NCBI RefSeq assembly: GCF_000214375.1
Contig: NC_015578.1
Span: 1,612,001-1,676,000, forward strand
Reading direction: 5' to 3'
Origin: Treponema primitia ZAS-2
GTDB lineage: Bacteria > Spirochaetota > Spirochaetia > Treponematales > Breznakiellaceae
DNA: 64,000 nucleotides
Part shown: piece after piece, positions 26,936 through 44,320 of the stretch
Numbering within the stretch: the first letter of the stretch is position 1
Layout: each line of letters starts with the position of its first letter
The notes under the pieces: model-generated
Database searches by the model: none
Seen by the model: the letters and a program-made list of their open reading frames with translations, nothing else
What the model was told of the DNA's origin: nothing
Translations under genes and position numbers: made by a program

Positions 26936-28303
26936 TCATCGTCCTTCCTGCTTAAGCACGGTTACCACGGTCTTAAACAATATAGAAATATCCAGTAAAA
27001 GGGACATATTCTTGATATAATACAAATCGCGCTGCATTTTTTTACGGGTATCTTCTCCGGAAGGCGAATGATACTCCCCCGATACCTGATCCCATCCAGT
27101 AAGGCCTGGTTTTACCAATAGGCGCTGGCGGTAAAAGGGAATATTCTTCTCCAGATGACTAACAAAAACAGGCTGCTCCGGCCGGGGTCCGATAAAACTC
27201 ATATCACCCCTAATAATATTAATACATTGTGGAATTTCATCAATCCGGGTTTTGCGCAGGAAATCACCGAATTTCGTTATACGGGGATCATTGTTAGTAA
27301 CCATGCCGCCGGTATTTTTTTCTATCCGCATGGTACGAAATTTTATAATAGTAAATTCATTACCAAAAAGACCAACCCGCTTCTGAAAGAAAAAAGCAGA
27401 TCCCGGACTTTCTGCTTTTATCATCAGGATGATAAGGGGGAAAAAAGGCAGTGCTAAAATCAAGATCAATAGGGCTATTATTATATCGCCTATTCGTTTA
27501 AAATATTGATACAGGTTTTTGACGTTTAGATTAATACTTCGTAAAAACCAGAGTTCATTTACCGAATCAATGGGAATACGCCGCAAATATGTTTCATAAA
27601 AATCAGCTATATTGAAAAAAAAGACGCGGCTATGCAAAAGTTCAAACAGGATATCTTGCAGGATGTAAGAAATATTTATATCATTAGCAAAAACTATTGC
27701 CTGGATATTATTTTTTTTGATTTCATTTATAAATGATGCTTTTTCTTTACACACCGGTATACCGCAATAATCATCTCCCTCATAGGTATCATCAAATATA
27801 AAGGGAACATGATAGGTCATATACGAAAAATTGCTGGTGTTATGTAATAAATCGGCAACCGTATTGTTAATACCAATAAAAATAATATTAGACACGGGAA
27901 AATACTTTTTTAATACTACGCTAAGAAACCATCGCCAAAACCCAATAAGGGCAAAGGCGAAGGATGAAAATAACAACAGAATAGTTTTCGGCACAATTAG
28001 TGAGTCATAATTGAGATAATAAATAGAAAAACCAAAAAACGTACAAATAATGGCAACAAGAAATATGGTCCATATTGTTTTATAGCCTGCATAGGGCATT
28101 TCCAGGGAATAAAACCCAAGGGTGTAAAAACAGATTATCCAGGCTATGATTACCGGAAGCATCACCCATATATGGACAAAATAATCATGAATAGACGGAA
28201 AGAGACGCCACCGTATGACAAGCGCCATGTGTACCGAAATAAGGAGTAATATAATATCAATAATAGCTATAAAAAATTGACGTTTCTTTCGAGATAGAGC
28301 CAT
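26936..28303 (-). CDS. Undecaprenyl-phosphate sugar phosphotransferase (WbaP/CpsE type)
   Basis: Polyisoprenyl-phosphate hexose-1-phosphate transferase that starts assembly of a surface glycan; 455 residues. Four N-terminal helices and a CoA-binding-like middle domain lead to a fifth helix (KRIGDIIIALLILILALPFF) and the catalytic domain, with IIKFRTMR, LRKTRIDEIPQCINIIRGD and FIGPRPEQP, and KPGLTGWDQVSG. This is the likely priming enzyme of the galactofuranose-containing polymer made by this island. No strong ribosome site precedes the ATG. Confidence 0.92.
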   Translation of the reverse strand: MALSRKKRQFFIAIIDIILLLISVHMALVIRWRLFPSIHDYFVHIWVMLPVIIAWIICFYTLGFYSLEMPYAGYKTIWTIFLVAIICTFFGFSIYYLNYDSLIVPKTILLLFSSFAFALIGFWRWFLSVVLKKYFPVSNIIFIGINNTVADLLHNTSNFSYMTYHVPFIFDDTYEGDDYCGIPVCKEKASFINEIKKNNIQAIVFANDINISYILQDILFELLHSRVFFFNIADFYETYLRRIPIDSVNELWFLRSINLNVKNLYQYFKRIGDIIIALLILILALPFFPLIILMIKAESPGSAFFFQKRVGLFGNEFTIIKFRTMRIEKNTGGMVTNNDPRITKFGDFLRKTRIDEIPQCINIIRGDMSFIGPRPEQPVFVSHLEKNIPFYRQRLLVKPGLTGWDQVSGEYHSPSGEDTRKKMQRDLYYIKNMSLLLDISILFKTVVTVLKQEGR

Positions 28304-28312
28304 AAAATTTTC

Positions 28313-30316
28313 TTATTCTTTTCCTATTTTTTTCAGATATTCCAAGGTTGTTTCCGGCACGAGCTTGGAAATCTCTACGAAGTTCTTTTCTTCAAGCAGC
28401 TTCCGTACCTTTGATGCGCTAATTGGCGTTCCATCCACTTCTTTCCTGGGAATTACTTCAAATTCGATGCCATGCTGCGGTAATATCCGCTTCATAGTAT
28501 CGTTATATTGGCGTGTTACATTGTCCAATGGCTCTTCCCCGGCAAAACGTACGTTTATACCTAAAGTAGGAGCTATTTCTTCCGCGAAAATGGTAACATC
28601 ATTTGACGGGTCAATCACCCGATCCTGTATTTTCGATTTATTAAAATAGTCGTTGAACGTGAGGGATGAAATAATAAACTTACCGCTTGGCAGTACGGTA
28701 ACATTCGGTAAGTCTTTCACGCCGGCTTTGATAAGCTCTAACCTGTCTGCAAATGGGAATATAGACTTGTCTTCTTCCACCGCAAAGATATAGAGCCGTT
28801 CAACCTGTTGTGCGGCGTACTCCGCGAGATACCGGTGACCGAAGGTAAATGGATTGCAGTTCATGACAATAGCGCCGATTCTTGTTTTATGCTCAAGCAG
28901 CGATCTTTTGTATTTTTCTAATTCAGCGGTGTATTCGGAGGGAATATTTGTAGAGGATGCCGTGTTTTTCTGTAGGGCTGATTCCGGAATACCGAATAAA
29001 TGCGGAAATGCAGACAGTGCACAGGGTGGAGCGGCGTTTTCTTTAGGCGCAGAAAAAAAATCATGTTTTTCGAGAACTTTATAGAGGGCATCTGCTATGG
29101 CGCGATTGCCGTTTTCATTCCAATGCAACTGATCAATAAACACTTCACCGTAAGAATGAGGACGCTGTAAAATTTGGGATAAATCAGTCCAACAATAGTG
29201 CTCTGATGGAGAAGCCGAGGTAATCACAATATCTCCCGGCTTTACTGGTAAAAGAAATAGTTGGCGTAAATAGTCCTCATGGCGCCCATGTATATAGCCG
29301 CCATAATTCCGTACGATGAAATGCCGCTCCGGAACATGCCTATTTAACAGCGCTTGTAAATATGATGAAGTCGTGCCGCTGTCCGGCGCACCATAACCAA
29401 AAAGTCTACAATCGCCATAGAAATAAATGGTTTGCACCGGGTTTTCAGGCTGCCCGATTGTTACTCGGTGACCATCTTTAATGTTTACATATTTTCCTTC
29501 TTTGTCATTGTAAATACGAAGATTATTAGTATCTAAATAAGAAGAAGAAGGAGTCATCATTTCGAGCACATCCGACGGCGTATAGGAAAACTCATTATAG
29601 GTGGATGTGGTAAATATACCCTTTTTTAATCCTTGTATAAATTTCCCTAATGAACTGTGCCCATTCAAAATATCAGTTTCGTTTTCTGTTCCTTTTTTTT
29701 GTGGAAATAACGGAGCGTGATATGTAAGTAAGTTAACGTAGGGATAGATGGAAGTAAAGAGGATTAGTGGTCTTTCATAAAGGAAATAGAAATGCAGAAT
29801 CTGTATTAATGATGGCAGCTGCACAATCCGCGTTTTAGTTCCTTTCAGATATTTCTCAGCCGCATAATCGATAACCGGTTTGATGATAAAGATCACATCT
29901 ACATCTTTCAGATCGATTGTATCGAGCGTACCGGAAACAAAACTGCCAAAATGAATGACATCGTGATAATTTATTATAAAAGGAATTCTTGAACAGGCAT
30001 GCATTGTTATTCTTTCATCCATACGAAATGATAAAGCGATCGGTTCCATCAAAGGCCAATATTGCTTTTCTGTATAGAGAACAATGTTTTTATATCCCTT
30101 GTCAACGCACCATTGTGTGGCTGTATAACCTGCCGCATACAACTCATGGATTTGAGAAAGCCATTTTTGCATAATATCGTGTGCAAGGGATGGAAGGAAA
30201 TTATGCTCTGCCTTGTCCGCATTTACTTGTACTGACTTATTTTTCTGTAGGCTCCGATTTTTTAAAATTTCACACGGTAGAATGGTTTTGACAATTTCCT
30301 TCAGCGTAATTTTCAA
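28313..30316 (-). CDS. Leader/Rossmann/Cys-SGNH/CitC-like protein, paralogue 1
   Basis: First of four tandem paralogues; 667 residues from the TTG at 30316, which has the same AAGGAAACTAAG-TTG-AAA context as its sisters (an upstream GTG at 30343 is less likely). Order: basic amphipathic leader (1-25), Rossmann-like domain (about 50-200, GYKNIVLYTEKQYWPL), SGNH-like domain (about 290-420) with FYGDCRLFGYG in place of GDS, so the nucleophile position is Cys (about 303), and DQLHWNENGN giving the D-x-x-H pair; then a CitC-like nucleotidyltransferase (about 480-667) with NPFTFGHRYL ((T/H)xGH motif) and ISASKVR. No citrate lyase genes are nearby. Function unknown; a glycan-modifying acyl or nucleotidyl transfer is suspected. 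Confidence 0.75.
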   Translation of the reverse strand: MKITLKEIVKTILPCEILKNRSLQKNKSVQVNADKAEHNFLPSLAHDIMQKWLSQIHELYAAGYTATQWCVDKGYKNIVLYTEKQYWPLMEPIALSFRMDERITMHACSRIPFIINYHDVIHFGSFVSGTLDTIDLKDVDVIFIIKPVIDYAAEKYLKGTKTRIVQLPSLIQILHFYFLYERPLILFTSIYPYVNLLTYHAPLFPQKKGTENETDILNGHSSLGKFIQGLKKGIFTTSTYNEFSYTPSDVLEMMTPSSSYLDTNNLRIYNDKEGKYVNIKDGHRVTIGQPENPVQTIYFYGDCRLFGYGAPDSGTTSSYLQALLNRHVPERHFIVRNYGGYIHGRHEDYLRQLFLLPVKPGDIVITSASPSEHYCWTDLSQILQRPHSYGEVFIDQLHWNENGNRAIADALYKVLEKHDFFSAPKENAAPPCALSAFPHLFGIPESALQKNTASSTNIPSEYTAELEKYKRSLLEHKTRIGAIVMNCNPFTFGHRYLAEYAAQQVERLYIFAVEEDKSIFPFADRLELIKAGVKDLPNVTVLPSGKFIISSLTFNDYFNKSKIQDRVIDPSNDVTIFAEEIAPTLGINVRFAGEEPLDNVTRQYNDTMKRILPQHGIEFEVIPRKEVDGTPISASKVRKLLEEKNFVEISKLVPETTLEYLKKIGKE

Positions 30317-30332
30317 CTTAGTTTCCTTGAGG

Positions 30333-32342
30333 CTATTTACCACATTTTTCTTGCAAATACTTTAACGTTGTTTCCGGCACCAGCTTTGAAATCTTCACGA
30401 AGTTCTTTTCTTCAAGCAGTTTCCGTACTTTTGATGCGCTAATTGGCGTGCCATCCACTTCTTTCCTGGGAATTACTTCAAATTCGATACCGTGCTGCGG
30501 TAATATCCGCTTCATAGTATCGTTATATTGGCGTGTTACATTGTCCAATGGCTCTTCCCCGGCAAAACGCACGTTTATACCTAAAGTAGGAGCTATTTCC
30601 TCTGCAAAAATAGTCACATCATTTGACGGGTCAATCACACGATCCTGCATTTCTGATTTATTAAAATAATCTTTGAACGTGAGGGATGAAATAATAAACT
30701 TACCGCTTGGCAGCACGGTAACATTCGGTAAGTCTTTCACGCCGGCTTTGATAAGCTCTAACCTGTCTGCAAATGGGAATATAGACTTGTCTTCTTCCAC
30801 CGCAAAGATATAAAGCCGTTCAACCTGTTGTGCGGCGTACTCCGCGAGATACCGGTGACCGAAGGTAAATGGATTGCAGTTCATGACGACAGCGCCGATT
30901 CTTGTTTTATGCTCAAGCAGCGATTTTTTGTATTTTTCTAATTCTGCGGTGTATTCGGAGGGAATATTTATAGAAGATGCCGTGTTTTGCTGTAGAGCTG
31001 ATTCCGGAATACCGAATAAATGCGGAAGCGCAAACAGTGAACTGGGGGGAGCGTCGATTTTTTTAGGCTCAGAAAAAAAATTGTTTTCTTCGAGAGCTTT
31101 ATAGAGGGCATCCGTCACGGCGCGATTACCATTTTCATTAAAATGTAACCTATCAATAAATACTTCACCGTAAGAATGGGGGCGTTGCAAAATTTCTGAT
31201 AAATCAGTCCAATAATAGTGTTCTGATGGAGGAGCATGGGAGACTACAATGTCGCCTGGTTTTACAGATAAAGAAAATAATTGGCGTAAATAGTCATCAT
31301 GACGTCCGTATATATAACCGCCATAATTCTGTACGATGAAATGCCGCTCTGGAATATGCCTATTTAACAGCGCCTGTAATTGTGAAGGAATTGTGCCACT
31401 GTCCGGTGAGCCATGACCAAAGATATCACAAGGTCCAGAAAAATAAATCGTACGTTCCGGGTTTTCAGGCTGCCCGATTGTTACTCGGTGACCATCTTTA
31501 ATGTTTACATATTTCCCTTCTTTATCATTATAAATACGGAGATTATTGTCGTCTAAATAAGAAGTTGGGGTTGTTAACATTTCGAGCACATCCGACGGCG
31601 TATAGGAAAGCTCATCATAGGTGGATGTGATAAATATACCCTTTTTTAATCCATCCAAAAATTCTTTTTCTGCCCTGCGATTACTCAAAATATTATCTTC
31701 ATTTTCCGTTCTATTTTTTTGTGGAAATCGTGGATAGCGATATGTAAGTAAGTGAACATCGGGATGAAGGGAGGCAAAGAGGATCAGTGGTTTTTCGAAA
31801 AGGAAATAAGCACGCAAAAGCTGTATCAGGTCCGGCAGCTGCACAATCCGCATTTTAGTTCCTTCCAGATATTTTTCAGCGGCAGAATCAATAAACGGTT
31901 TGATGATAAAGATCACGTCTACATTGTTCAGATCGATTGTATTGAGCGCACCGGAAACAAACCAGCCAAAAACAACTTCATCTTGATACCTTGATATAAA
32001 AGGAATTCTTGAACAGGCATGCATTGCTATTCTTTTATCCATACGAAATGATAAAGCAATTGGTTCTATCAAAGGCCAATATTGCTTTTCTGTATAGAGA
32101 ACGACGTTTTTATACCCCTTGTCAATGCACCATTGTGTGGCGGTATAACCTGCCGCGTATAACTCATGGATTTGAAAAAAAAGCCATTTTTGAGCAATAT
32201 CAGTCTGCACATTGGGTGGAGGGAAATTATGCTGTAGTTTTTCTGCGTTTACCCGTATTGATTTGGATTTTTTTACATCCAATATTTTTAAAATCCCATA
32301 CGGTATAAAAGCTTTGACAATCTTCTTCGGCGTAATTTTCAA
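30333..32342 (-). CDS. Leader/Rossmann/Cys-SGNH/CitC-like protein, paralogue 2
   Basis: Second paralogue, 669 residues, TTG start with AAAAGGAGAC. Leader KITPKKIVKAFIPYGILKI at 2-20. The Rossmann-like domain has GYKNVVLYTEKQ at about 76-87. SGNH block I reads FSGPCDIFGHG with Cys305; block II is QNYGGYIYGRH (about 338-348); block III, usually GxND, reads HAPPSEH; D397 and H400 form the D-x-x-H pair (FIDRLHFNENGN). The C-terminal CitC-like domain has NPFTFGHRYLAEYAA (490-504) and ISASKVRKLL (634-643). It shares its C-terminal half with paralogue 1 but its N-terminal third with paralogue 3. Confidence 0.75.
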   Translation of the reverse strand: MKITPKKIVKAFIPYGILKILDVKKSKSIRVNAEKLQHNFPPPNVQTDIAQKWLFFQIHELYAAGYTATQWCIDKGYKNVVLYTEKQYWPLIEPIALSFRMDKRIAMHACSRIPFISRYQDEVVFGWFVSGALNTIDLNNVDVIFIIKPFIDSAAEKYLEGTKMRIVQLPDLIQLLRAYFLFEKPLILFASLHPDVHLLTYRYPRFPQKNRTENEDNILSNRRAEKEFLDGLKKGIFITSTYDELSYTPSDVLEMLTTPTSYLDDNNLRIYNDKEGKYVNIKDGHRVTIGQPENPERTIYFSGPCDIFGHGSPDSGTIPSQLQALLNRHIPERHFIVQNYGGYIYGRHDDYLRQLFSLSVKPGDIVVSHAPPSEHYYWTDLSEILQRPHSYGEVFIDRLHFNENGNRAVTDALYKALEENNFFSEPKKIDAPPSSLFALPHLFGIPESALQQNTASSINIPSEYTAELEKYKKSLLEHKTRIGAVVMNCNPFTFGHRYLAEYAAQQVERLYIFAVEEDKSIFPFADRLELIKAGVKDLPNVTVLPSGKFIISSLTFKDYFNKSEMQDRVIDPSNDVTIFAEEIAPTLGINVRFAGEEPLDNVTRQYNDTMKRILPQHGIEFEVIPRKEVDGTPISASKVRKLLEEKNFVKISKLVPETTLKYLQEKCGK

Positions 32343-32358
32343 TTTAGTCTCCTTTTAG

Positions 32359-34401
32359 CTATCCGCTGTACTTTTCTTTCAAATATAACAGCGTCGTCTC
32401 TGGAACGATCTTGGAAATCTCCACAAAGTTTTTTTCTTCAAGCAGCCTCCGTACCGTTGATGCGCTGATTGCTACACCGCCAATTTCTTTTCTCGGAATC
32501 TCAACAAGACTCACACCGTTTTCAGGAAAAATCTTATGCATAGTCTCGTTATACTGTTTTGTAACAGTATCGAATGGCTCTGTCCCTACAAATCTAGTTT
32601 TAATATTAAGAATTGGGGCAATCTCTTCTGCGAAGAAAATTACATCACTTGACGGGTCGATTTTTACCTCCTGTAGTTTTTCCCTGTTATAATAACTGGA
32701 AAAAGTAAGCCGTGAACCTATGAACATACCGGAAGACAAAACGACAACATTTGGAAGGTCTTTGGTTCCCTCCTTTACCATTGCATACCTATCTTCATAC
32801 TCCAAAAAAGTTTTGTTGTCTTTAACTACAAAAATATATAAGGTTGAAACTCGTGCTGCAGCATATTCAACTAAATATCGATGCCCATAGGTGAATGGAC
32901 CTGCCGTCATAGCAATAGCCCCATTTTCACCCAAAGTTTTGTTGCGGTGTTCATACAAAACTTTTTTGTATTCCTCAATCTGCTTTTCATACCCAGGGAA
33001 TAATTTGTGTTTTGCAGGGATATTCGTAGAGAATGCTGCTTTGCTCTGTAATACTGATTCCGGGATACCGAATAAATGCGGAAGCGCAAACAGTGTACCG
33101 GGGGGAGCGGCGTTTTCTTTAGGCGCAGAAAAAAAATCATGTTCTTCGAGAGTTTTATAAAGAGCATCCGCTATGGCGCGATTGCCGTTTTCATTAAAAT
33201 GTACCCCGTCTATAAATACTTCACCATAAGGATGGGGGCGTTGCAAAATTTGTGATAAATCAGTCCAACAATAGTGTTCTGATAGAGGAGCCCAAACCTC
33301 GGAAACTACAATATCTCCTGGTTTTACAGACAAAGAAAATAATTTGCGTAAACGGTCATCATGACGTCCGTATACATGGCCGCCATAATTCTGTACGATA
33401 AAATGCCGCTCGGGAGCATGGCTATTTAGCAACGCTTGTAAATGTGATGAAGTCGTGCCACTGTCCGGTGCGCCATGGCCAAAGATTCGACAACCACCAA
33501 AAAAATAAATCGTATGTTCCGGGTTTTCAGGCTGCCCGATTGTTATTCGGTGACCATCTTTAATGTTTACATATTTCCCTTCTTTATCATTGTAAATACG
33601 GAGATTGGTGTTATCTAAATAAGAGGGCGGAGGGCACATCATTTCAAGTACATCCGAAGGTGTATAGGGAAATTCATCATAGGAGGATGTGGTAAATATA
33701 CCCTTTTTTAATCCATCCAAAAATTCTTTTTCTGCCCTGCGATTACTCAAAATATTATCTTCATTTTCCGTTCTATTTTTTTGTGGAAATCGTGGAGAGC
33801 AATACGTAAGTAAGTGAACATAGGGATGGAGGGAAGTAAAGAGGATCAGTGGTTTTTCAAGAAAGAAATAATCACGCAAAAGCTGTATCAAGGATGGCAA
33901 CTGCACAATCCGCGTTTTAGTTCCCTCCAGATATTTCTCAGCGGCAGAATCAATAAACGGTTTGATGATAAAAACCACGTCTACATCTTTTAGATCGATT
34001 GTATTGAGCGCACTGGAAACAAACCAGCCAAAAATAGCTTCATCTTGATACCTTGTTATAAAAGGAATTCTTGAACAGGCATGCGTTGTAATTCTTTCGT
34101 CCATACGAAATGATAAAGCAATCGGTTCTATCAAAGGCCAATATTGCTTTTCTGTATAGAGAACGACATTTTTATACCCCTTGTCAATGCACCATTGTGT
34201 GGCGGTATAACCTGCCGCGCATAACCCATGGATTTGAGAAAGCCATTTTTGCATAATATCAGTCTGTACAAGGGGTGAAGGGGGATTATACTGTAGTTTT
34301 TCTGCGTTTACCCGTATTGATTTGGATTTTTTTACATCCAATATTTTTAAAATCCCATACGGTATAAAAGCTTTGACAATCTTCTTCGGCGTAATTTTCA
34401 A
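32359..34401 (-). CDS. Leader/Rossmann/Cys-SGNH/CitC-like protein, paralogue 3
   Basis: Third paralogue, 680 residues, TTG start with GAAAGGAGAC. The first 37 residues match paralogue 2 exactly; the SGNH block I is FFGGCRIFGHG (Cys about 304), with FIDGVHFNENGN as the D-x-x-H block. The C-terminal nucleotidyltransferase is a second version (type B): GPFTYGHRYLVEYAAAR, ISASTVRRLL, and a longer linker before it containing AKHKLFPGYEKQIEEYKK. Type B is shared with paralogue 4. The (T/H)xGH motif is intact (TYGH). Function unknown as for its sisters. Confidence 0.75.
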   Translation of the reverse strand: MKITPKKIVKAFIPYGILKILDVKKSKSIRVNAEKLQYNPPSPLVQTDIMQKWLSQIHGLCAAGYTATQWCIDKGYKNVVLYTEKQYWPLIEPIALSFRMDERITTHACSRIPFITRYQDEAIFGWFVSSALNTIDLKDVDVVFIIKPFIDSAAEKYLEGTKTRIVQLPSLIQLLRDYFFLEKPLILFTSLHPYVHLLTYCSPRFPQKNRTENEDNILSNRRAEKEFLDGLKKGIFTTSSYDEFPYTPSDVLEMMCPPPSYLDNTNLRIYNDKEGKYVNIKDGHRITIGQPENPEHTIYFFGGCRIFGHGAPDSGTTSSHLQALLNSHAPERHFIVQNYGGHVYGRHDDRLRKLFSLSVKPGDIVVSEVWAPLSEHYCWTDLSQILQRPHPYGEVFIDGVHFNENGNRAIADALYKTLEEHDFFSAPKENAAPPGTLFALPHLFGIPESVLQSKAAFSTNIPAKHKLFPGYEKQIEEYKKVLYEHRNKTLGENGAIAMTAGPFTYGHRYLVEYAAARVSTLYIFVVKDNKTFLEYEDRYAMVKEGTKDLPNVVVLSSGMFIGSRLTFSSYYNREKLQEVKIDPSSDVIFFAEEIAPILNIKTRFVGTEPFDTVTKQYNETMHKIFPENGVSLVEIPRKEIGGVAISASTVRRLLEEKNFVEISKIVPETTLLYLKEKYSG

Positions 34402-34417
34402 TTTAGTCTCCTTTCAG

Positions 34418-36454
34418 CTATCCGCCGTACTTTTCTTTCAAATATGACAGCGTCGTCTCTGGAACGATCTTGGAAATCTCCACAAAGTTCTTTTCTTCAA
34501 GCAGCCTCCGTACCCTTGATGCGCTGATTGCTACATCGCCAATTTCTTTTCTCTGAATTTCAACAAGACTTAAACCGTTTTCAGGAAAAATCTTATGCAT
34601 AGTCTCGTTATACTGTTTTGTAACAGTATCGAATGGCTCTGTCCCTACAAATCTAGTTTTAATATTAAGAATTGGGGCAATCTCTTTTGAGAAGAAAATT
34701 ACATCGCTTGACGGGTCGATTTTTACTTCCTGTAGTTTTTCCCTGTTATAATAACTGGAAAAAGTAAGCCGTGAACCTATGAACATACCGGAAGACAAAA
34801 CAACAACATTTGGAAGGTCTTTGGTTCCCTCCTTTACCATTGCATACCTATCTTCATACTCCAAAAAAGTTTTGTTGTCTTTAACTACAAAAATATATAA
34901 GGTTGAAGCTCGTGCTGCAGCATATTCAACTAAATATCGATGCCCATAGGTGAATGGACCTGCCGTCATAACAATAGCCCCATTTTCACCCAAAGCTTTG
35001 TTGCGGTGTTCATACAAAACTTCTTTATATTCCTCAATCTGCTTTTCATACCCAGGGAATAATTTGTGTTTTACAGGGATATTCGTAGAGAATGCTGCCT
35101 TGCTCTGTAATACTGATTCCGGGATACCGAATAAATGTGGAAACGCAAACAGTGTGCCGGGAGGAAGGTTATTTTCTTTAGGTTCAGAGAAAAAATCGTT
35201 TTCTTCGAGGGTTTTATAGAGAGCATCCGCCATGGCGCGATTACCATTTTCATTCCAATGTCTTTTGTCTATAAAAACTTCACCATAAGGATGGGGACGT
35301 TGTAAGATTTGCGATAAATCTATCCAAAAATAGTGTTTTGATGGGGTAGCCTGGATTACAACAATGTCTCCTGGTTTTACGGGCAGTAAAAACAGTTGGC
35401 GAAAATAGTCCTCATGGCGCCCATGTATATAGCTGCCATAATTCTGTACAATGAAATGCCGCTCGGGAGCATGGCTATTTAGCAGCGTTTGCAATTGCGA
35501 AGGTATCGTACCACCGTCCGGCGCACCATGACCAAAAAAATTACATTGTCCAATAAAATAAACCGTTCGTTCTGAATTTTCAGGCTGCCCGATTGTTACC
35601 CGGTGACCATCTTTAATGTTTACATATTTCCCTTCCTTGTCATTGTAAATACGGAGATTATTATTGTCCAGATAAGAAGGAGGGGGCGTAATCATTTCAA
35701 GCACATCCGATGGAGTATAGGAAAACTCGTCATACGTGGATGTGTTAAATATACCATTTTTTAATCCTACAGTAAATTCCAACCCTGCCTTACTTCTCTT
35801 GAAAATATTATTTTCATTTTCTGTTCTATTTTTTTGTGGAAATATCGGCGCATGAAATGTGAGTAGGTGAACATCGGGATGGAGAGATGTAAAGAGGAGG
35901 AGCGGTTTTTCAGAAAAGAAATAAGAATGTATGATTTGTATCAATGATGGCAACTGTACAATCCGTGCCTTTGATCCTTTTAGCTCTTTCTCAACATCCA
36001 AATCAACATCCGGTTTGATGATAAAGACCACGTCTACATCTTTTAGATCGATTGTACTGAGCGCATCTGAAACAAAGCTGCCAAAATCAATCTCATTTTG
36101 ATAATTGATTATAAAAGGAATTTTAGAATAGGCACGCATTGTTGTCCTTTCGTCAATACGAAACGATAAAGCAATCGGTTCCATCAAAGGCCAATATTGC
36201 TTTTCTGTATAAAGTACGACATTTTTATATCCTTTTTCAACGCACCATTGTGTGGCGGTATAACCTGCCGCATATAGCTCATGGATTTGGGAAAGCCGTT
36301 TTTGCATAATATAGTTCGGTATATGGGCTGGAGAGAAATTATGTTGTTTTTTGTCTATATTTACCGATATTGACTTTTTTCTCTGTATATTCCGAATTTT
36401 TAGAATTCCGTATGGTATAAAAGCTTTGATAATCTTCTTTAATGTGATTTTCAA
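34418..36454 (-). CDS. Leader/Rossmann/Cys-SGNH/CitC-like protein, paralogue 4
   Basis: Fourth paralogue, 678 residues, TTG start with AAAAGGAGAT. Leader KITLKKIIKAFIPYGILKI. SGNH block I is FIGQCNFFGHGAPDGGT with Cys at about 304 and FIDKRHWNENGN as the D-x-x-H block; block III reads QATPSKH, again lacking Asn. The type B CitC-like domain carries GPFTYGHRYL and ISASRVRRLL. First of the array to be transcribed, right behind the pyruvyltransferase-MenD fusion. Its middle variable segment (about 210-240) differs from the others, consistent with segmental exchange. Confidence 0.75.
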   Translation of the reverse strand: MKITLKKIIKAFIPYGILKIRNIQRKKSISVNIDKKQHNFSPAHIPNYIMQKRLSQIHELYAAGYTATQWCVEKGYKNVVLYTEKQYWPLMEPIALSFRIDERTTMRAYSKIPFIINYQNEIDFGSFVSDALSTIDLKDVDVVFIIKPDVDLDVEKELKGSKARIVQLPSLIQIIHSYFFSEKPLLLFTSLHPDVHLLTFHAPIFPQKNRTENENNIFKRSKAGLEFTVGLKNGIFNTSTYDEFSYTPSDVLEMITPPPSYLDNNNLRIYNDKEGKYVNIKDGHRVTIGQPENSERTVYFIGQCNFFGHGAPDGGTIPSQLQTLLNSHAPERHFIVQNYGSYIHGRHEDYFRQLFLLPVKPGDIVVIQATPSKHYFWIDLSQILQRPHPYGEVFIDKRHWNENGNRAMADALYKTLEENDFFSEPKENNLPPGTLFAFPHLFGIPESVLQSKAAFSTNIPVKHKLFPGYEKQIEEYKEVLYEHRNKALGENGAIVMTAGPFTYGHRYLVEYAAARASTLYIFVVKDNKTFLEYEDRYAMVKEGTKDLPNVVVLSSGMFIGSRLTFSSYYNREKLQEVKIDPSSDVIFFSKEIAPILNIKTRFVGTEPFDTVTKQYNETMHKIFPENGLSLVEIQRKEIGDVAISASRVRRLLEEKNFVEISKIVPETTLSYLKEKYGG

Positions 36455-36484: not shown

Positions 36485-39403
36485 CTATATCTTTACTACG
36501 CCGAAAAATACCTCAAAGAACAACGGTTCATTTATCTCGGAGGACACAAACAACGACAATTGTGCTTCAAACTCTTCCTTTGTTTTGGCAGAAAGATATT
36601 TAAAACCGAGTGATTTTACCCAACCCTCAGCGGCCGTTTCGTGTGCCTGGGTAACGCCGGGACTACGATGATGCCGGAGTAATCCGGCTCCTCCATCGTT
36701 GTTGAGGAGTATGCGGATATTTCCTGTAATATTTTTATTCCAAAGACTGTTCATATCATAGAAAAATGATAAATCTCCAACAAGCAGAAAACAAAGACGC
36801 GATGGCTCAGTTACCGCAGCTTGTCCCATAAAAGTGGACACACAGCCATCTATGCCATTTGTCCCCATGTTGCAGAACACCTCAACGCTGGGATGAAGCG
36901 CATATCTTTGGGACATCATAAATGTATTGCCAACCGCGAGGTGAAGTGTCGAATTTGGCGGGATACGTTTCATAGTTTCGTTTAGTGTAAAGTCTGTAAA
37001 GTAATTTGTTGGATTTTTAATATCTAGCTGATCAATGCTTTTTTTAATCAACGAAAAATATTCATTGGTATTTTTAATATTTCCCGCATGTTCGGCAAAA
37101 TACTTAAAGAAATAATTATCTGAACACTCAAAAACCGCGGTGAGCTTACGATAGGGATCAACAATAGCTCCATCCTCGGACACACGCCATATATCTACAT
37201 TTTGGGGCGCTCCACGTAACCTATCACCGGTAGGATTATTCATAACCTGCTTGTCACCTATGGATATTACCAGATCTGGTGACATGGTTTGATTGAATTC
37301 TTCTTGAGTGCAATGATTGAATAGGAGATAGGTATGGAGGCTTTTCTCAGAATGATAATTTGAAAGGTGATCGGTTGTTATTACGCAGTTATATTTTTTT
37401 ACAAACACATCAATGTTATTGCGTAATTCCGGAGAAGGCGGAAGATATTGCCCAACGACAATCAGTACCCGTTTTTTACCGTGCAAAACCGTTATATAAT
37501 CGTCCCATATTTTTGAGCCGCTTTCAAGCGTAATCCGCTGAATAATTCGTAATGGCGGAAGTTTCAATGTTGTCAAATCAGTCGGCGGCATACGTTCAAT
37601 ATAATTTATTGGCACATTTATCTGAACAGGCCCTTTGGAATGATGGGTTGCCTCTAAGATTGCCTCCGATGTCAGCAGCCTTGTTTCCCATTTACCAAAA
37701 TAATCGCCATTAATAGGAAGGGTTACACTTTTTTTGCAGACCGCGCCGTACATACCCGGTTGTGGGATTGTTTGGTCTTCCATTTGCCCGAGAAAACACG
37801 GGTATCTATCGGCGGTAATCGCAATGAGTGGCACATGCTGATAGAACGCTTCAGTTATTGCGCTTAGGTAATTTGACGCGGCGGTACCTGAAGTACAGCA
37901 CATTCCAACCGGCTGTTTTCCTAATTTGATCGACAGCCCAAGCGCAAAGAATCCAGCGCTGCGTTCATCTGTCACATGATATATTTTAAAAAAGTCATTA
38001 TTTGCCTCGAATAGCCGGACAAGGGAAACATTGCGCGTGCCGGAAGAAATCACAATATGTTTTATGTTGTATGTTTTGCACAGTGACACTACAATTCGAC
38101 AACGCTCAATATCAGGATGTATTATGGTGTCCACTGTTTTGCCTATAGATTTGGCCGGCGGCATCTTGTCATTTGGTTTTGGCTGTATTGGCTCATTTTT
38201 ATTTAAATCCCGAATTTTTAAAATCCCGTATGGTATAAAAGCTTTGACAATTTTCTTGGGTGTAATATTTAATTTACCTCCCTCCGATGGTGGTGTAAAC
38301 AGCGTCTTTTTTATCCACTTCAGGGAATATCTTTTTGGAGGTAATGCATTCTTTAGCCAATCAAGAGATTTTTTACGTTCTTCTTTTAACACGGAATTTA
38401 TTTTTTCATAGTCAAGCGCTTCGAAAAGCTTTTCATTTCCTATGATAGTTTCGGCGTCGGTTGTGAATCGTTCTTTGTTTTCTATCATTTCAAAAAGAGA
38501 GTCAAACCGTGACATACCCCGCATTTTGTTCCCTATAGTTACAAAGGGCTTGTTGAAAAGCAGGGCAAAAACAGTTCCATGAAAAGAGTCGGTTATAACA
38601 AAGTTTGCGTTGAGGTATAAATATACAAAATCTTCACTTTCTACGTCTTCCGCTATGCCATCTAAATCAAGCGCTTTTTTATTCCCTTCAAATTTCCATG
38701 GCAACCCGTCAAGAATATGTATCAACTTCAATCCCAAATGCTCTGCTATATAGAGCATTGCCCTGCGTTTTTCGGGTGTGGGGTCCAAAATGTATGATAA
38801 AACATAGGGTTTCTTTTCGCGTAACAAAGATTTTTCAGCAAGTTTTTCATACAGTTTTTTTCCGCATAACAATATGGGGTCTAAAACCTGTGTTGCCTTA
38901 ACATCGTAAATGTCCCTGCATAAACGAACACCGCTCTTTTCTCTGACAGAAATGGCGTTAAAACATTTCATATAGCCGCTGATATTTTTACGTTCTTCCG
39001 GCGGGGCGAAATCAACCGAATGTCCAAAAGAAGTGGAATAAGAAATTTTATGCTTGGTATTGTATGCAAAATCTAAATAATAGGCTTTGCCGAAATTTTT
39101 ACTGATCCCGTAATTCCACAGTTGGTCAGAACCCACAATAAATGCGTCGCATAAATCGTTGAGTTCAGAAATATCTGATAAGGTATAATATTTGCTTATA
39201 TTATAATGCATCCGTGCAAAACGCATGCTAAAGGTGTCCCCACGTTCCGGATCCGTTAGGGAAGCATTGATTTTTGAAATCATCAGCACTGAAAACCCCA
39301 GGGATTTCAAGGTTTCATGCAAACCATAATAGGTCAAAACACCGCCATAATTACAGCTGTGCCATAGACCAAGTACCCCAATGTCATATTTCTTTTTATT
39401 CAT
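36485..39403 (-). CDS. Polysaccharide pyruvyltransferase / MenD-like ThDP enzyme fusion
   Basis: A 972-residue two-enzyme protein. Residues 1-370 are a WcaK/CsaB-type pyruvyltransferase (LWHSCNYGGVLTYYGL, AFIVGSDQLWNYG, NFVITDSFHGTVFALLFNKP), a family that adds pyruvate ketals to sugars. Residues 377-397 repeat the leader of the downstream array (ITPKKIVKAFIPYGILKIR). Residues about 428-972 are a thiamine-diphosphate enzyme closest to MenD: VTDERSAGFFALGL with catalytic-type E480, CCTSGTAASNYLSAITEAFY, NGIDGCVSTFMGQAAV, and GDLSFFYDMNSLW...NNDGG. Both parts look intact. The linker codes over a former ribosome site (GGAGGGAGG), suggesting recent fusion. Substrates are unknown; MenD chemistry here is probably for an unusual sugar or acyl group. 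Confidence 0.82.
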   Translation of the reverse strand: MNKKKYDIGVLGLWHSCNYGGVLTYYGLHETLKSLGFSVLMISKINASLTDPERGDTFSMRFARMHYNISKYYTLSDISELNDLCDAFIVGSDQLWNYGISKNFGKAYYLDFAYNTKHKISYSTSFGHSVDFAPPEERKNISGYMKCFNAISVREKSGVRLCRDIYDVKATQVLDPILLCGKKLYEKLAEKSLLREKKPYVLSYILDPTPEKRRAMLYIAEHLGLKLIHILDGLPWKFEGNKKALDLDGIAEDVESEDFVYLYLNANFVITDSFHGTVFALLFNKPFVTIGNKMRGMSRFDSLFEMIENKERFTTDAETIIGNEKLFEALDYEKINSVLKEERKKSLDWLKNALPPKRYSLKWIKKTLFTPPSEGGKLNITPKKIVKAFIPYGILKIRDLNKNEPIQPKPNDKMPPAKSIGKTVDTIIHPDIERCRIVVSLCKTYNIKHIVISSGTRNVSLVRLFEANNDFFKIYHVTDERSAGFFALGLSIKLGKQPVGMCCTSGTAASNYLSAITEAFYQHVPLIAITADRYPCFLGQMEDQTIPQPGMYGAVCKKSVTLPINGDYFGKWETRLLTSEAILEATHHSKGPVQINVPINYIERMPPTDLTTLKLPPLRIIQRITLESGSKIWDDYITVLHGKKRVLIVVGQYLPPSPELRNNIDVFVKKYNCVITTDHLSNYHSEKSLHTYLLFNHCTQEEFNQTMSPDLVISIGDKQVMNNPTGDRLRGAPQNVDIWRVSEDGAIVDPYRKLTAVFECSDNYFFKYFAEHAGNIKNTNEYFSLIKKSIDQLDIKNPTNYFTDFTLNETMKRIPPNSTLHLAVGNTFMMSQRYALHPSVEVFCNMGTNGIDGCVSTFMGQAAVTEPSRLCFLLVGDLSFFYDMNSLWNKNITGNIRILLNNDGGAGLLRHHRSPGVTQAHETAAEGWVKSLGFKYLSAKTKEEFEAQLSLFVSSEINEPLFFEVFFGVVKI
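38213..38285 (-). repeat. Fifth copy of the leader module, with fossil ribosome site
   Basis: On the minus strand GGAGGGAGGTAAATTAAATA aligns with the start regions of the array genes (GGAGACTAAATTGAAAAT), followed by codons for ITPKKIVKAFIPYGILKI. Where the array genes have the TTG start, this copy has TTA, and the sequence is read through in frame from the upstream pyruvyltransferase. It marks where a separate MenD-like gene used to begin. Internal initiation at the following ATT codon is conceivable but weak. Confidence 0.7.
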
Positions 39404-41195
39404 GGTTTAACTCTAAATACTTTTCCCAGAACTCGAATGAGGTCAATTCCTTATGCGCTTTGGTATATTCTTTTTTTAAATCATCAAAACGCGCTTTGAT
39501 CTGCTTCATCCGTGCTTTGAATTCTTTTTCAAACACTATCATGCGTTTACGGTCATATTTTCTGATACAATATTTTCCGGTTAACAAATTGTATACTTTT
39601 ACTGTTTTAACAAGCATAAAGTTATCCATCGGCGGGTACCACTCAAGGGCATTGGATTCTTTTTCCCAGAGGAATTGCGGGCAATATTTGCCATGCCTTG
39701 TCAACTTAAATACTATCTTACGTTTTTTCCTTGGTGGATAATAGGTTTTAGCGTATTCAATTTCACGTATTTCGGCATCAAAATATTCTGGTTTTTTTAC
39801 CATGCTTTGTAATTCTTTGTGTAGCAGTTCAGGATTTTGTTTGAGCATTTGCGGCCCCGCAAGAACGTCATCAAGCGCCCTAAATAATAAATCGATATCA
39901 TTATAATTATATGTTTTCAGTAAAAAATAAAAAACATCTGTCAAGAATTTTTTATAGGTGTTCTTAAAATCATCAATATAAATTGACCAAACAATAAAAA
40001 CATTTCTGTGATGATAATATCGGTCTGTCAGCGGAGGAACCTTCCACATAAAAGGCTCATGCCAAACACAAATACCGTTCAATGCGATATGGTGCTTTCC
40101 CTGATGCCGCCAGCCCCATTCCACATCATCGCATCTAATAAAGAATGGGAGGGGCAATCCTTTTTCATGAATAAAGGAGACCGGGAAGCAATTATACCAC
40201 CATCCGGAAAACACCTTTTTTTCAGAAAATAATTTGTCTTGTACTGTATTGATTTTTAGGATATTTTCCAGCCTGAGAACATCCATCCCTGAATACACAC
40301 CCTTAACCCAATCTCCCTTTTGAAATGCAAGGGCCTCAAATAACCAATGCTTCGAAACCATTTCCATCATGGCACCGCTAATAAAGGCATCACGGTATTC
40401 TTCGCGTAAATAATTTGAAACAATCAATGTGCGGAAATAAGATTCCGGTAAAACATCAATATCATCATCCATCAGAAGGATTCTGGTATACCCCGCATTT
40501 GATTTTACCGCTTCCATCATTCCCCGTGTAAAGCCGCCGGCGCCGCCGGCATTCATATTGGGCAAAATATCTGTATGAGCATAACGTTTACCGGCATCCA
40601 AAGTTCTTCCGTTGTCAATGACAAATAGATGTATTTTATCGCGCAGTGCTTCGTTTTCTGTTAAAAAATTTTCAAATTTGCCGATGTTATTTAAAATATA
40701 TTCTTCCCGCTTGAAGGTACATGAAACAATGGCAAGTTTGTTTTCAGTTCCAGGCGTCTTATCGGTGCACCATTGTATTGAATTAATAGCAAAAGGTTCA
40801 GTTGATTTTTTGTAAATAGTGAACCAAATACCATCATAGTTTTTTGCATCAGGAATTGATACTTGTTCACTATCGGTATCAATATATGTATCGAGTAAAA
40901 TACTGTCCAATGATGTGCCAAAAGCATGATTTTGATTTGTGCCCATAATCTGTAATTGATAAGCGCCGGTAATGTTAAGTCTAAGATAAATTTCGCCCAA
41001 ATCGCAGTAGGCGTACCATTTCTTTGCTCCGAATAAATTCATCCATGTGTTAAATTGATAGACATCGCCTTGTTCCAAATTACCAAGATCCTTATGGTGC
41101 CAATAAAAAAGCCCCTTATAGTGAAGAAAATTTGGTGGAGGTAATACCACATTTGAAAGCGGGTACAGTTTCTTTATCACTTTTGACGACTCCAT
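39396..41195 (-). CDS. GlfT2-like galactofuranosyltransferase (copy 1)
   Basis: GT2-family enzyme of 599 residues with the GlfT2 layout: an N-terminal beta-sandwich domain (about 1-160), then the GT-A domain starting VSCTFKREEYILNNI, the NAGGAGGFTRGMMEA motif, the metal-binding LLMDDDIDV (about 245), and RCDDVEWGWR with catalytic acid residues, then VWHEPF with the metal His; a helical C-terminal domain follows. GlfT2 adds galactofuranose from UDP-Galf; the glf gene in this operon supplies the donor. Overlaps the exporter ATPase gene by 19 bases and the fusion gene by 8. Confidence 0.82.
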   Translation of the reverse strand: MESSKVIKKLYPLSNVVLPPPNFLHYKGLFYWHHKDLGNLEQGDVYQFNTWMNLFGAKKWYAYCDLGEIYLRLNITGAYQLQIMGTNQNHAFGTSLDSILLDTYIDTDSEQVSIPDAKNYDGIWFTIYKKSTEPFAINSIQWCTDKTPGTENKLAIVSCTFKREEYILNNIGKFENFLTENEALRDKIHLFVIDNGRTLDAGKRYAHTDILPNMNAGGAGGFTRGMMEAVKSNAGYTRILLMDDDIDVLPESYFRTLIVSNYLREEYRDAFISGAMMEMVSKHWLFEALAFQKGDWVKGVYSGMDVLRLENILKINTVQDKLFSEKKVFSGWWYNCFPVSFIHEKGLPLPFFIRCDDVEWGWRHQGKHHIALNGICVWHEPFMWKVPPLTDRYYHHRNVFIVWSIYIDDFKNTYKKFLTDVFYFLLKTYNYNDIDLLFRALDDVLAGPQMLKQNPELLHKELQSMVKKPEYFDAEIREIEYAKTYYPPRKKRKIVFKLTRHGKYCPQFLWEKESNALEWYPPMDNFMLVKTVKVYNLLTGKYCIRKYDRKRMIVFEKEFKARMKQIKARFDDLKKEYTKAHKELTSFEFWEKYLELNHE

Positions 41196-41947
41196 ATGTT
41201 CTTAAGATGGGTCCCTAGCATATACTTCAGATATTCGGTATGAACTTCTTTTGGTGGGCCCTGCATAGCAATAATGCCATCATTTATCCAGTAGGTGCGG
41301 TTACAGAATGCCTCTATGGTTCCCAAACCGTGTGCAACTATTGCAATGGTCATGCCTGCCTCCTGCAATTCGTGCATTTTTTTGATACATTTTGCAGAAA
41401 ACGCGGCATCCCCCACTGCCAAAACTTCATCTGCCAATAAAATATCCGCATCGACATTGATAGCTATGGCAAACGCAAGGCGAACATACATACCGGAAGA
41501 ATAGGTCCGCACAGGATTGTCCAAATAATTGCTAAGTTCGGAAAAGTCGATAATATCCTGTAGTCGTGCGTCTGTTTCTTGTTTTGAGAGTCCAAAAATT
41601 GAGGCATTTATATAGATATTCTCCCTGCCGGTCATATCCGGATGGAATCCGGCGCCCATCTCGAGCAGACTTGATATGCGGCCAACCATTTCGATGTTTC
41701 CCTGGTCGGGATACATAATTCTTGTCATGAGTTTAAGGAGCGTGCTTTTTCCGGCGCCGTTTTTCCCGATTATTCCAATAGATTCACCTTTTTTTGTTTC
41801 AAGCGAAACACCCTTCAACACCCACCTATCCTCATAATAATTTCTGTTCCTAAATAGAAGACGTTCCTTTAGTGTTTTGCCTTTGTCGAAGTACACTTTG
41901 TATTTTTTATATACATTGTCAACTTTTATTATTGTATCGTCCGCCAT
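41177..41947 (-). CDS. Polysaccharide export ATPase (Wzt/TagH-like)
   Basis: ABC ATPase of 256 residues from the polysaccharide/teichoic acid exporter family. Walker A GKNGAGKST, the loop MGAGFHPDMTGRENIYINAS typical of Wzt-like proteins, signature TYSSGMYVRLAFAIAI, Walker B ILLADEVLAVGD and switch His in AIVAHG are present. There is no C-terminal carbohydrate-binding domain, so it is the short form that exports without recognising a capped end. Directly follows its permease (stop and start adjacent). Confidence 0.92.
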   Translation of the reverse strand: MADDTIIKVDNVYKKYKVYFDKGKTLKERLLFRNRNYYEDRWVLKGVSLETKKGESIGIIGKNGAGKSTLLKLMTRIMYPDQGNIEMVGRISSLLEMGAGFHPDMTGRENIYINASIFGLSKQETDARLQDIIDFSELSNYLDNPVRTYSSGMYVRLAFAIAINVDADILLADEVLAVGDAAFSAKCIKKMHELQEAGMTIAIVAHGLGTIEAFCNRTYWINDGIIAMQGPPKEVHTEYLKYMLGTHLKNIWSRQK

Positions 41948-42724
41948 CTATAATTCCTCCGCAAAATATTTTTTTAGCCTTTGAAAAACGAATATGCCGA
42001 TGCATAAACAAACCACACTCACCGCAAAAGCGTGGACGAGAGTCAGCCAATCGGGAATTTTTCCTCTATAGAGAATATCCCGATAGACTTCGACTATGGG
42101 AGTCATGGGATTCAGGATATACCATTTTTGATATTTTTTAGGCACATTTTCAATGGAATAGAATAGCGGCGTGAGAAACATCCACAGCATTGAGACTGTA
42201 CTTAGAATATATTGCACATCCCGGAAGTATACGGTAATTGCGGAGGTGATAAAGGTTATGGCAAGGGCAAGTAAGTATTCAATTATCATGATGAGTGGCA
42301 AATAGAGCATGGCGACCGGATTTATGGGGACGCCGGAAATAAACACCACCGCAAACACAATTACAAAACAGTATAGCATATTGATGAAATTGGTAGTTAC
42401 AAATGCGATGGGCAGCACTTCCCGGGGGAAGTATATTTTTTTTACCATGCCGCCATTCGCGATGATGACGGCACAGCCGCTGTGTAGTGCCATTGAAAAA
42501 AATGTCCATGGGATAAAAGCAACAAATAAAAACACACTAAAATTCGGAATGTTCGTACGTCTGATTGTGGAAAATACGAAGGTATAGACAACGAACTGTA
42601 AGAACGGATTAATGAAGGTCCATAGGAACCCCAGCACTGACCCCTTATACCGCCCACGTAACTCGCGGTGTATAATACCAGCAAGCATATATCGATAATT
42701 GTAAATTTCTTTTAAAGTATTCAT
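41948..42724 (-). CDS. Polysaccharide export ABC-2 permease (Wzm/TagG-like)
   Basis: Membrane permease of 258 residues with six predicted helices and the ABC-2 signature GRYKGSVLGFLWTFINPFLQ near the N-terminus and ILNPMTPIVEVYRDILYRG near 200. It forms the channel for lipid-linked polysaccharide export with the adjacent ATPase. The presence of an ABC exporter and absence of Wzx/Wzy genes in the island indicate the polymer is completed in the cytoplasm before export. Confidence 0.92.
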   Translation of the reverse strand: MNTLKEIYNYRYMLAGIIHRELRGRYKGSVLGFLWTFINPFLQFVVYTFVFSTIRRTNIPNFSVFLFVAFIPWTFFSMALHSGCAVIIANGGMVKKIYFPREVLPIAFVTTNFINMLYCFVIVFAVVFISGVPINPVAMLYLPLIMIIEYLLALAITFITSAITVYFRDVQYILSTVSMLWMFLTPLFYSIENVPKKYQKWYILNPMTPIVEVYRDILYRGKIPDWLTLVHAFAVSVVCLCIGIFVFQRLKKYFAEEL

Positions 42725-42730
42725 TAGGGC

Positions 42731-44320
42731 TTATTTATCCTCCATTAGTTGGCGCGGGATATCCAGGTGTTGGCACCAAAAATCCAGGCTGGAAATTTCT
42801 TCCTGTCGTTTCCGAAAGGAACGGGCCGCTGCAGGATAGTTTTGAATCATTTTTACCGTCATGGATGTCAAATCCCGAAAGGTTTTACGGATACTCTTTT
42901 TTACCGTTCCGGAAGATATGGCCAGTAAATCCCTGTGTAAAAGCTCTTCATCGATGGTCAGAAAAAAATCTATTCCCTGCAAAAAATCTTCATAAGCTTT
43001 ATTTATAAAATTAATAGCCATATACTGCCGGCGGAGGGATAACTTTATTGTGCCATAAACAAATTTTAACCAGTGGATAAACAAACCGGCACGGGGGCAG
43101 TGCAAAACATCTACAATCATGTGATTACGCCTGACATAATAAGACATTACGGGCCTGTTGTATTTGCTGTCAAAATCCGGATGCCAAATTCCTATGCCGT
43201 TCATGAGCGCCAATCTTTTAACAGTTCTTAGACCGTAGTCCACATCATCGCTATTAATAAACAAAGGCAGGGGCAGCTTATACTGATCTACCACAGAGAG
43301 GGGCATACACATATACCACCACCCCTGATAATCTATTTTTTCCTCAACTTCATTTTCAAGGACAGAATCAATGCTTCTTAAATCCAGATTATGCTTGACA
43401 GACACACATTTCCCCCGCCAAACACCGCCGGCTTCATGCTGAAGGAAAGGCAAATCCAAGCGCAGCATACTGGCGCCAATACATAAATCCTTATGTTCCG
43501 GCCGGATTACCCGGAGAAAAGATACGGTTTTTGCCAGGGTTTCTGCGTCAAATATAATATCATCATCCATGAGCAGAAAATGGGTGAACTCGTCCTTCCG
43601 TTTATGGGCTTCAATAATGCCCCGGGTAAATCCTCCGCTGCCGCCATAGTTTTTATTGGGAAATACCTGAATACGGTTCTTATCCCAGCGGTCTTCCGGT
43701 ATAGTTTTTCCGTTATCAATAATAAAAAATTTTATGCGGCCGGCAATAAAATAAAGATCGGCGTTCTGAAATATATACCGTTCTGCCATCTCCATATTAC
43801 GGTAAAGGAAGGCTTCGCGCTTATAGGTGCAGATAATAACCGCTGCTTTTACATTATTGGGCGGCTCCATATCTTCCGATGCATAATACGCACCGGAAAG
43901 AACTGCTCCGTCGGATATGGCCCTTACTTCTATATAATAAAAACCTATGGTCCTGTCCATAGAAAAATCATTGCCAAGACGAACTTCTTCAAATGATTCT
44001 GTATGGATATCCTTCGATGCCAGTACTTCCCTGTGTATCCTACGGCCCTGTCTGCGTACCGCCAAAAGACGGATACTAACTTCACCTTTTAAACGCAGGA
44101 CCGCTGCAACAGTGCTTACGGTGGTATAGGCCAGATATTTTGAATAGGAAAAACAATTAAAATAGGTGTCAAAAGAAAGGACCGTTCCTTTTTTTATCTC
44201 CAGTCCTTCGCTGCTGAAGGCTACTCTCCCTAGCTCCCCGCCTGCTGCATAGGCACGGTAATATAATTCTTGTTCTTGACAAATTCCTTCATTTGGCCAT
44301 CTAAAATTAAATAACTTCAA
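42731..44320 (-). CDS. GlfT2-like galactofuranosyltransferase (copy 2)
   Basis: Second GlfT2-type enzyme, 529 residues. N-terminal beta-sandwich (about 1-165), GT-A core from VIICTYKREAFLYRNM, NYGGSGGFTRGIIEA, LLMDDDIIFDAE and NSDDVDYGLRT with the acidic pair, then GIWHPDF with the metal-ligand His. Start is a TTG at 44320 with only a weak ribosome site. It differs widely from copy 1, so the two probably act on different acceptors or linkages in the same Galf polymer. Confidence 0.8.
   Translation of the reverse strand: MKLFNFRWPNEGICQEQELYYRAYAAGGELGRVAFSSEGLEIKKGTVLSFDTYFNCFSYSKYLAYTTVSTVAAVLRLKGEVSIRLLAVRRQGRRIHREVLASKDIHTESFEEVRLGNDFSMDRTIGFYYIEVRAISDGAVLSGAYYASEDMEPPNNVKAAVIICTYKREAFLYRNMEMAERYIFQNADLYFIAGRIKFFIIDNGKTIPEDRWDKNRIQVFPNKNYGGSGGFTRGIIEAHKRKDEFTHFLLMDDDIIFDAETLAKTVSFLRVIRPEHKDLCIGASMLRLDLPFLQHEAGGVWRGKCVSVKHNLDLRSIDSVLENEVEEKIDYQGWWYMCMPLSVVDQYKLPLPLFINSDDVDYGLRTVKRLALMNGIGIWHPDFDSKYNRPVMSYYVRRNHMIVDVLHCPRAGLFIHWLKFVYGTIKLSLRRQYMAINFINKAYEDFLQGIDFFLTIDEELLHRDLLAISSGTVKKSIRKTFRDLTSMTVKMIQNYPAAARSFRKRQEEISSLDFWCQHLDIPRQLMEDK

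Follow-up and report, generated by a model that had tools for sequence, protein, structure and literature searches.

We analyzed a 64,000-nucleotide window of the Treponema primitia ZAS-2 genome (positions 1,612,001-1,676,000 of a single contig of 4,059,867 bases), which carries at 28313-36454, on the minus strand, four head-to-tail open reading frames (ORFs) listed at 676, 669, 680 and 678 residues, whose products couple an SGNH-like domain to a domain related to CitC, the citrate lyase ligase. Four consecutive genes of ~670 residues had been predicted from the sequence, and this is borne out by their exact span and by an end-to-end alignment in which the four proteins are 67-80% identical. 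The array uses TTG starts; the GTG start listed for copy 1 lies nine codons upstream of a TTG matching those of the other copies, and copy 1 probably begins at this TTG (30316), giving 667 residues. The predicted order of leader, Rossmann-like, SGNH-like and CitC-like domains also stands, with two corrections: the position of the SGNH nucleophile is occupied by Cys and not Ser, and the "leader" resembles an amphipathic helix. The CitC motifs, of the T/HxGH and ISxxxxR types, are present as predicted, NPFTFGH in copies 1 and 2 (type 1), GPFTYGH in copies 3 and 4 (type 2) and ISASxVR in all four. The array and its putative catalytic sites, all on the minus strand, are laid out as follows:

28313..30343, minus strand: array copy 1; leader, Rossmann-like N-terminal domain, SGNH-like domain, CitC-like domain of type 1
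Sites in copy 1, minus strand: SGNH Cys at 29408-29410 and His at 29123-29125; PFTFGH of the NPFTFGH motif at 28835-28852; ISASKVR at 28403-28423
30333..32342, minus strand: array copy 2; 669 residues, domain order as in copy 1, CitC-like domain of type 1
Sites in copy 2, minus strand: SGNH Cys at 31428-31430 and His at 31143-31145; C6 run in the linker
32359..34401, minus strand: array copy 3; 680 residues, domain order as in copy 1, CitC-like domain of type 2 (GPFTYGH)
Sites in copy 3, minus strand: SGNH Cys at 33490-33492 and His at 33199-33201; C6 run in the linker
34418..36454, minus strand: array copy 4; 678 residues, domain order as in copy 1, CitC-like domain of type 2
Sites in copy 4, minus strand: SGNH Cys at 35543-35545 and His at 35258-35260

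In a hidden Markov model search, the C-terminal 185 residues of all four proteins matched Citrate_ly_lig (PF08218) with 192-215 bits for a cut-off of 20.9 (E 8e-64 to 8e-57), and a fold search with the full-chain model placed this domain among nucleotidyltransferases of the phosphopantetheine adenylyltransferase (PPAT) type (Z ~19). Its PFTxGH-type and ISAS-R motifs are kept across the family of SGNH-CitC fusions described below. Against TIGR00124, which covers the whole of CitC, the four copies score 207.8, 207.1, 176.9 and 182.6 bits, all below the equivalog cut-off of 262.1, and the matches start only at position 122-126 of the 335 of the profile, indicating that the N-terminal GNAT acetyltransferase half of CitC is missing; the SGNH fold occupies its place. 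That the array simply consists of ordinary citrate lyase ligases misplaced in a glycan island, as the common C-terminal Pfam domain might suggest, is contradicted by the lack of the GNAT half, by the missed TIGR00124 cut-off and by two further observations: a genuine CitC adjoins CitF elsewhere in this genome (at about 3.02-3.03 Mb, with a second CitF at 0.84 Mb and the array at 1.64 Mb), and the fused CitC domains form a clade apart from GNAT-CitC (support 0.86), the divergent pair L085 and L111 being the exception. We consider this explanation extremely improbable. Note that the reported absence of citrate lyase genes holds within the window and not genome-wide, since citC and citF are present elsewhere.

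The SGNH part scores below threshold in Pfam (Lipase_GDSL, 15.9 bits for a gathering cut-off of 32.9; Lipase_GDSL_2, 12.7-14.9 bits for 23.6). As the full-chain fold search returned only the CitC part, we modeled this domain alone, and its fold confirmed the predicted SGNH assignment. The model, with a mean predicted local distance difference test score (pLDDT) of 86.5, best matches CgnD (PDB 8a2n; Z 12.1, root-mean-square deviation 2.9, 153 residues aligned), whose catalytic triad is Asp325/His328/Ser79 (PMC10070186); lower-scoring matches include many GDSL esterases (Z 8-10), TesA, carbohydrate esterases and the peptidoglycan O-acetyltransferase PatB (Z 7.9). In a profile of 15 members, GxC aligns to the GDS and HxN to the HPN of solved SGNH esterases. 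Of 58 copies, 47 have Cys, 10 have Ser and one has Pro at the nucleophile position of block I (the Ser of GDS in SGNH hydrolases); all four window copies have Cys. The catalytic His of block V (DxxH, present as FIDxxH in the window copies) is kept in 57 out of 57 copies, and R15, T46, Q52 and D92 (model numbering) are invariant over the 58.

Taking these domain assignments together, we give about an even chance to each array protein being a self-contained enzyme, independent of coenzyme A (CoA), that would both activate an acyl group and transfer it to a surface glycan. The CitC family forms acyl-AMP. In a first step, the CitC-like domain would thus bind ATP and a small carboxylic acid, yielding acyl-AMP and pyrophosphate. 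The Cys-His pair of the SGNH domain would then take over the acyl group, bound to Cys as a thioester or, where the residue is Ser, as an ester; in genuine CitC the acyl group is received by the acetyltransferase domain, whose place the SGNH domain has taken. Lastly, the SGNH domain would acylate a sugar at a hydroxyl or amine. A precedent is TmcAL, of the same superfamily of nucleotidyltransferases, which turns acetate and ATP into acetyl-AMP (PMC7408541). Several points weigh against this reading. The formation of acyl-AMP, rather than the nucleotidylation of another molecule, would follow solely from family membership; the canonical oxyanion residue, the Asn of block III (GxND), is not recognisable, as the GDI strand is followed by none that is invariant (57 of the 58 copies conserve another Asn, in VxN); the relative with Pro is devoid of a nucleophile; and many copies from rumen Selenomonadales lie outside glycan loci, beside GatB, SPFH, ClpB, radical-SAM or histidine-kinase genes.

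The original prediction of a decorating system acting by acyl or nucleotidyl transfer can be narrowed, acyl transfer being the most economical of the two. It is unlikely that the C-terminal domain acts as a cytidylyl- or adenylyltransferase activating a polyol-phosphate or similar compound, which the SGNH domain would trim or transfer: the fold is common to the PPAT and NMNAT nucleotidyltransferases, TIGR00125 (cyt_tran_rel) is matched with 28 bits and one relative (L171) adjoins a CDP-glycerol glycerophosphotransferase gene, but Citrate_ly_lig reaches ~215 bits as compared to 21 for the general CTP_transf_like model, and the domain is constantly paired with SGNH, a fold of acyl chemistry. A similarly small chance goes to the SGNH domain being a thioesterase or esterase that edits the acyl group, or an inactive acceptor-binder, with the CitC-like domain acylating another thiol carrier. 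Its closest folds do include the thioesterase TesA and esterases, and block III is degenerate; however, hydrolyzing an acyl group activated by the same chain would waste ATP, and the Cys/Ser and His are almost invariant.

The array lies in an island with a G+C content of 0.36-0.41, compared to 0.55-0.57 further out, and is flanked by the following genes, all on the minus strand:

26936..28303, minus strand: undecaprenyl-phosphate sugar-phosphate transferase (EPS_sugtrans)
36485..39403, minus strand: polysaccharide pyruvyl transferase (PS_pyruv_trans) fused to a MenD-like thiamine diphosphate enzyme
39396..41195, minus strand: GlfT2-like galactofuranosyltransferase
41177..41947, minus strand: Wzt-type ABC exporter ATPase
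41948..42724, minus strand: Wzm-type ABC exporter permease
42731..44320, minus strand: GlfT2-like glycosyltransferase
44327..45085, minus strand: family 2 glycosyltransferase (GT2)
45096..46076, minus strand: family 2 glycosyltransferase (GT2)
46073..47188, minus strand: UDP-galactopyranose mutase (GLF)

These families agree with the surface-glycan setting proposed for the array, with no link to citrate lyase, and the product of the island is probably an exported polymer that contains galactofuranose and carries pyruvyl groups. The MenD-like half of the fusion at 36485..39403 scores 242.3 bits with TIGR00173, just below the cut-off of 244.2, and may supply the glycan of the array with an unusual acid.

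The N-terminal 200 residues of the array proteins form a Rossmann-like domain in the full-chain model, at lower confidence, and the first 25 resemble an amphipathic helix. The leader motif (NITPKKIVKAFIPYGILKIRD) is also found at the junction of the PS_pyruv_trans and MenD-like halves of the neighboring fusion (36485..39403). A leader-type N-terminus is present as well on a methyltransferase-like protein, of the FkbM type as judged by eye, encoded at ~0.25 Mb (G000:C1:254528-254605, L182). The leader common to the array and methyltransferase-like proteins suggests a docking helix shared by glycan enzymes. In the proposed acyl-transfer scheme, this helix may serve to dock the enzyme to the assembly complex of the membrane, and the Rossmann-like domain may hold the acceptor.

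Within the array, the conservation is mosaic. The CitC domains are 96% identical between copies 1 and 2 and 94% between copies 3 and 4, but only 56-59% between type 1 and type 2, whereas the SGNH domains are 77-82% identical in every pair and the N-terminal domains 71-86%. The synonymous divergence (dS) between the CitC types is above 2, compared to 0.2-0.8 for the N-terminal and SGNH domains, and copies 2 and 3 have the closest front halves (dS of 0.21 for the N-terminal and 0.30 for the SGNH domain) despite their different CitC types. The simplest reading is that the CitC half has been swapped or gene-converted within the array. The ratio of nonsynonymous to synonymous divergence (dN/dS) ranges from 0.07 to 0.57, i.e. 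below 0.6 in all comparisons, indicating that all four copies are under purifying selection. With two CitC types and a variation of the SGNH domain around the nucleophile, the copies may put different acids on different positions of a galactofuranose-type polymer.

The SGNH-CitC fusion is present in Treponema, Negativicutes and Oscillospirales, and overall in several bacterial phyla besides that of the window. Matches occur in 28 of 300 Negativicutes genomes (some of these matches being weak) and in 56 of 189 from the family of genome G370, and 14 of 394 Oscillospirales genomes have one, about half being weak; single genomes of Riflebacteria and of Propionibacteriaceae also carry the fusion, and no match was found in five searched genomes of the genus of the window organism. 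A plasmid search returned one fusion on a large Vibrio replicon, the other matches listed being to the CitC part only, bar one CitC domain in a 912-residue protein of Deltaproteobacterium Smac51. The three phage matches cover the CitC part only, some in records resembling bacterial DNA, and the idea that phages carry the whole fusion was rejected. The two domains appear tightly coupled: almost all strong SGNH matches are accompanied by a CitC domain, either within their own ORF or immediately behind it, and the exceptions lie at the ends of contigs or loci. A separate four-copy array exists in one unrelated Selenomonadales genome. The N-terminal partners vary and include a PS_pyruv_trans domain in a 1335-residue Treponema chain (L174:3380-7384), which reads PS_pyruv_trans-SGNH-CitC-NAD-dependent epimerase and has, downstream of CitC, two long tracts. 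CitC domains are joined to other proteins in the 912-residue Deltaproteobacterium chain (L176:1-2733), which contains TPR repeats and an FFGDST motif, and in a Fibrobacterales chain with an FGLC motif (L013:3-1430), both possible independent SGNH-CitC fusions.

The expectation that this architecture would recur only in surface-glycan loci fails, in view of the many rumen Selenomonadales copies among housekeeping genes, for which the acceptor may be something else. These copies, together with some near large "FDLQRFA"-type proteins whose surface location is a guess, would fit a family whose target is a surface protein, some different non-glycan molecule or a glycan synthesized elsewhere, glycan loci being just one of the places where its genes reside. 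We nevertheless regard this as improbable, given the glycan loci in Treponema, Oscillospirales and several Selenomonadaceae: Treponema relatives are flanked by GT2, GT4 and GT8 glycan genes and include the PS_pyruv_trans fusion, Oscillospirales copies are flanked by FrhB_FdhB and nucleotidyltransferase genes, and several Selenomonadaceae copies lie near genes for Wzx, a CMP-sugar synthetase-like protein, Wzy and CDP-glycerol transferase.

A further property of the relatives is the presence of mononucleotide tracts in the linker between the SGNH and CitC domains, counted as C or G runs of at least 8. Such interdomain tracts, often frame-breaking, are found for instance in L006, L007, L135, L137, L139, L140, L143, L146, L151, L155-L157 and L173. 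In a first set of 54 non-window members, 16 have linker runs of 8-14 C or G, eight in frame and eight out of frame, and seven further members have a run before the SGNH domain or at the C-terminus. No such run occurs in 52 kb of domain DNA and 23 occur in 735 kb of neighboring DNA, several of them where family genes end. When the linkers are codon-shuffled, a tract is present in 0.67 members on average and in 4 at most, versus the 16 observed. A second set of 29 members, looked at after the tract pattern was noticed, has linker tracts in eight (two in frame, six out), none inside the domains and five tracts before the SGNH domain. With both sets pooled, the frame is broken in 14 of 24 members with a tract versus 6 of 57 without (Fisher p 2e-5, a guide only since related genomes are not independent). 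The different placement of C and G tracts by lineage suggests a repeated origin. Nearly all of these members come from unnamed or metagenome-assembled genomes, in which single frame states may be assembly errors; such errors in homopolymer length could mimic single frame states, yet not the enrichment or the position of the tracts. Near the C-terminus of one family gene, a run of 24 C is present (L138:5291).

The linker tracts look like phase-variable switches, at which slippage in the relatives would bring the activating CitC half into the product or leave it out; in the literature searched, no published account of phase variation in these taxa was found. The window copies have at most C6, at the matching place of the linker in copies 2 and 3, and are thus probably fixed on. 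Runs of T8 at the SGNH-linker boundary of copies 1-3 and of A8 in copy 1 are possible weak slippage sites and may be contingency tracts, although A/T runs are common in the AT-richer island. At the scale of the family, a CoA-independent acyltransferase in which an acyl-AMP domain feeds the SGNH Cys/Ser in cis, with tracts making the activating half phase-variable and thereby generating a combinatorial code of surface acylation, is a tentative proposal that we place somewhat short of an even chance.

The acid substituents of surface polysaccharides usually derive from CoA, phosphoenolpyruvate or membrane acyl carriers. A fused enzyme that both activates and transfers the acid would, if true, provide a different route on which free acids could be used, including acetate, which abounds in rumens and termite guts. 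In the literature searched, we found no published account connecting CitC with SGNH/polysaccharide or with acetyl-AMP, nor of SGNH-cytidylyltransferase fusions, and the papers retrieved that name both citrate lyase ligase and glycosyltransferase deal with other subjects. In line with the earlier view that no named pathway matches, no named family was found that covers the SGNH-CitC fusion.

Among known systems, CitC (TIGR00124, PF08218) shares with the array proteins the C-terminal nucleotidyltransferase domain and its motifs, but the latter have SGNH instead of GNAT, lie away from citrate lyase and score 177-208 bits against 262. CgnD (8a2n), an SGNH-fold protease of crocagin biosynthesis, is similar over the whole SGNH domain, including the N-terminal hairpins and the DxxH motif, and differs by its Ser nucleophile, its peptide substrate and the lack of a CitC domain. 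PatB and other SGNH-type O-acetyltransferases, as well as carbohydrate esterases (CE3, Axe2 and others), have in common the fold and an acyl chemistry on sugars; unlike the array proteins, they rely on an ester donor and a Ser nucleophile, and their chains contain no domain for activation. TmcAL (HIGH_NTase1) belongs to the same superfamily and makes acetyl-AMP from acetate and ATP, but it acetylates tRNA and has no SGNH domain. Lastly, poly-C/G contingency tracts are known from surface-antigen genes, e.g. in Campylobacter. The tracts described here resemble these simple-sequence contingency loci in being C/G mononucleotide runs with on and off frames in genes for surface structures; they differ in being mostly interdomain, so that the off state keeps the SGNH half and loses the CitC half. 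If true, a mutable tract placed between two catalytic domains would alter the capability of the enzyme and not its production, which would be unusual for phase variation.

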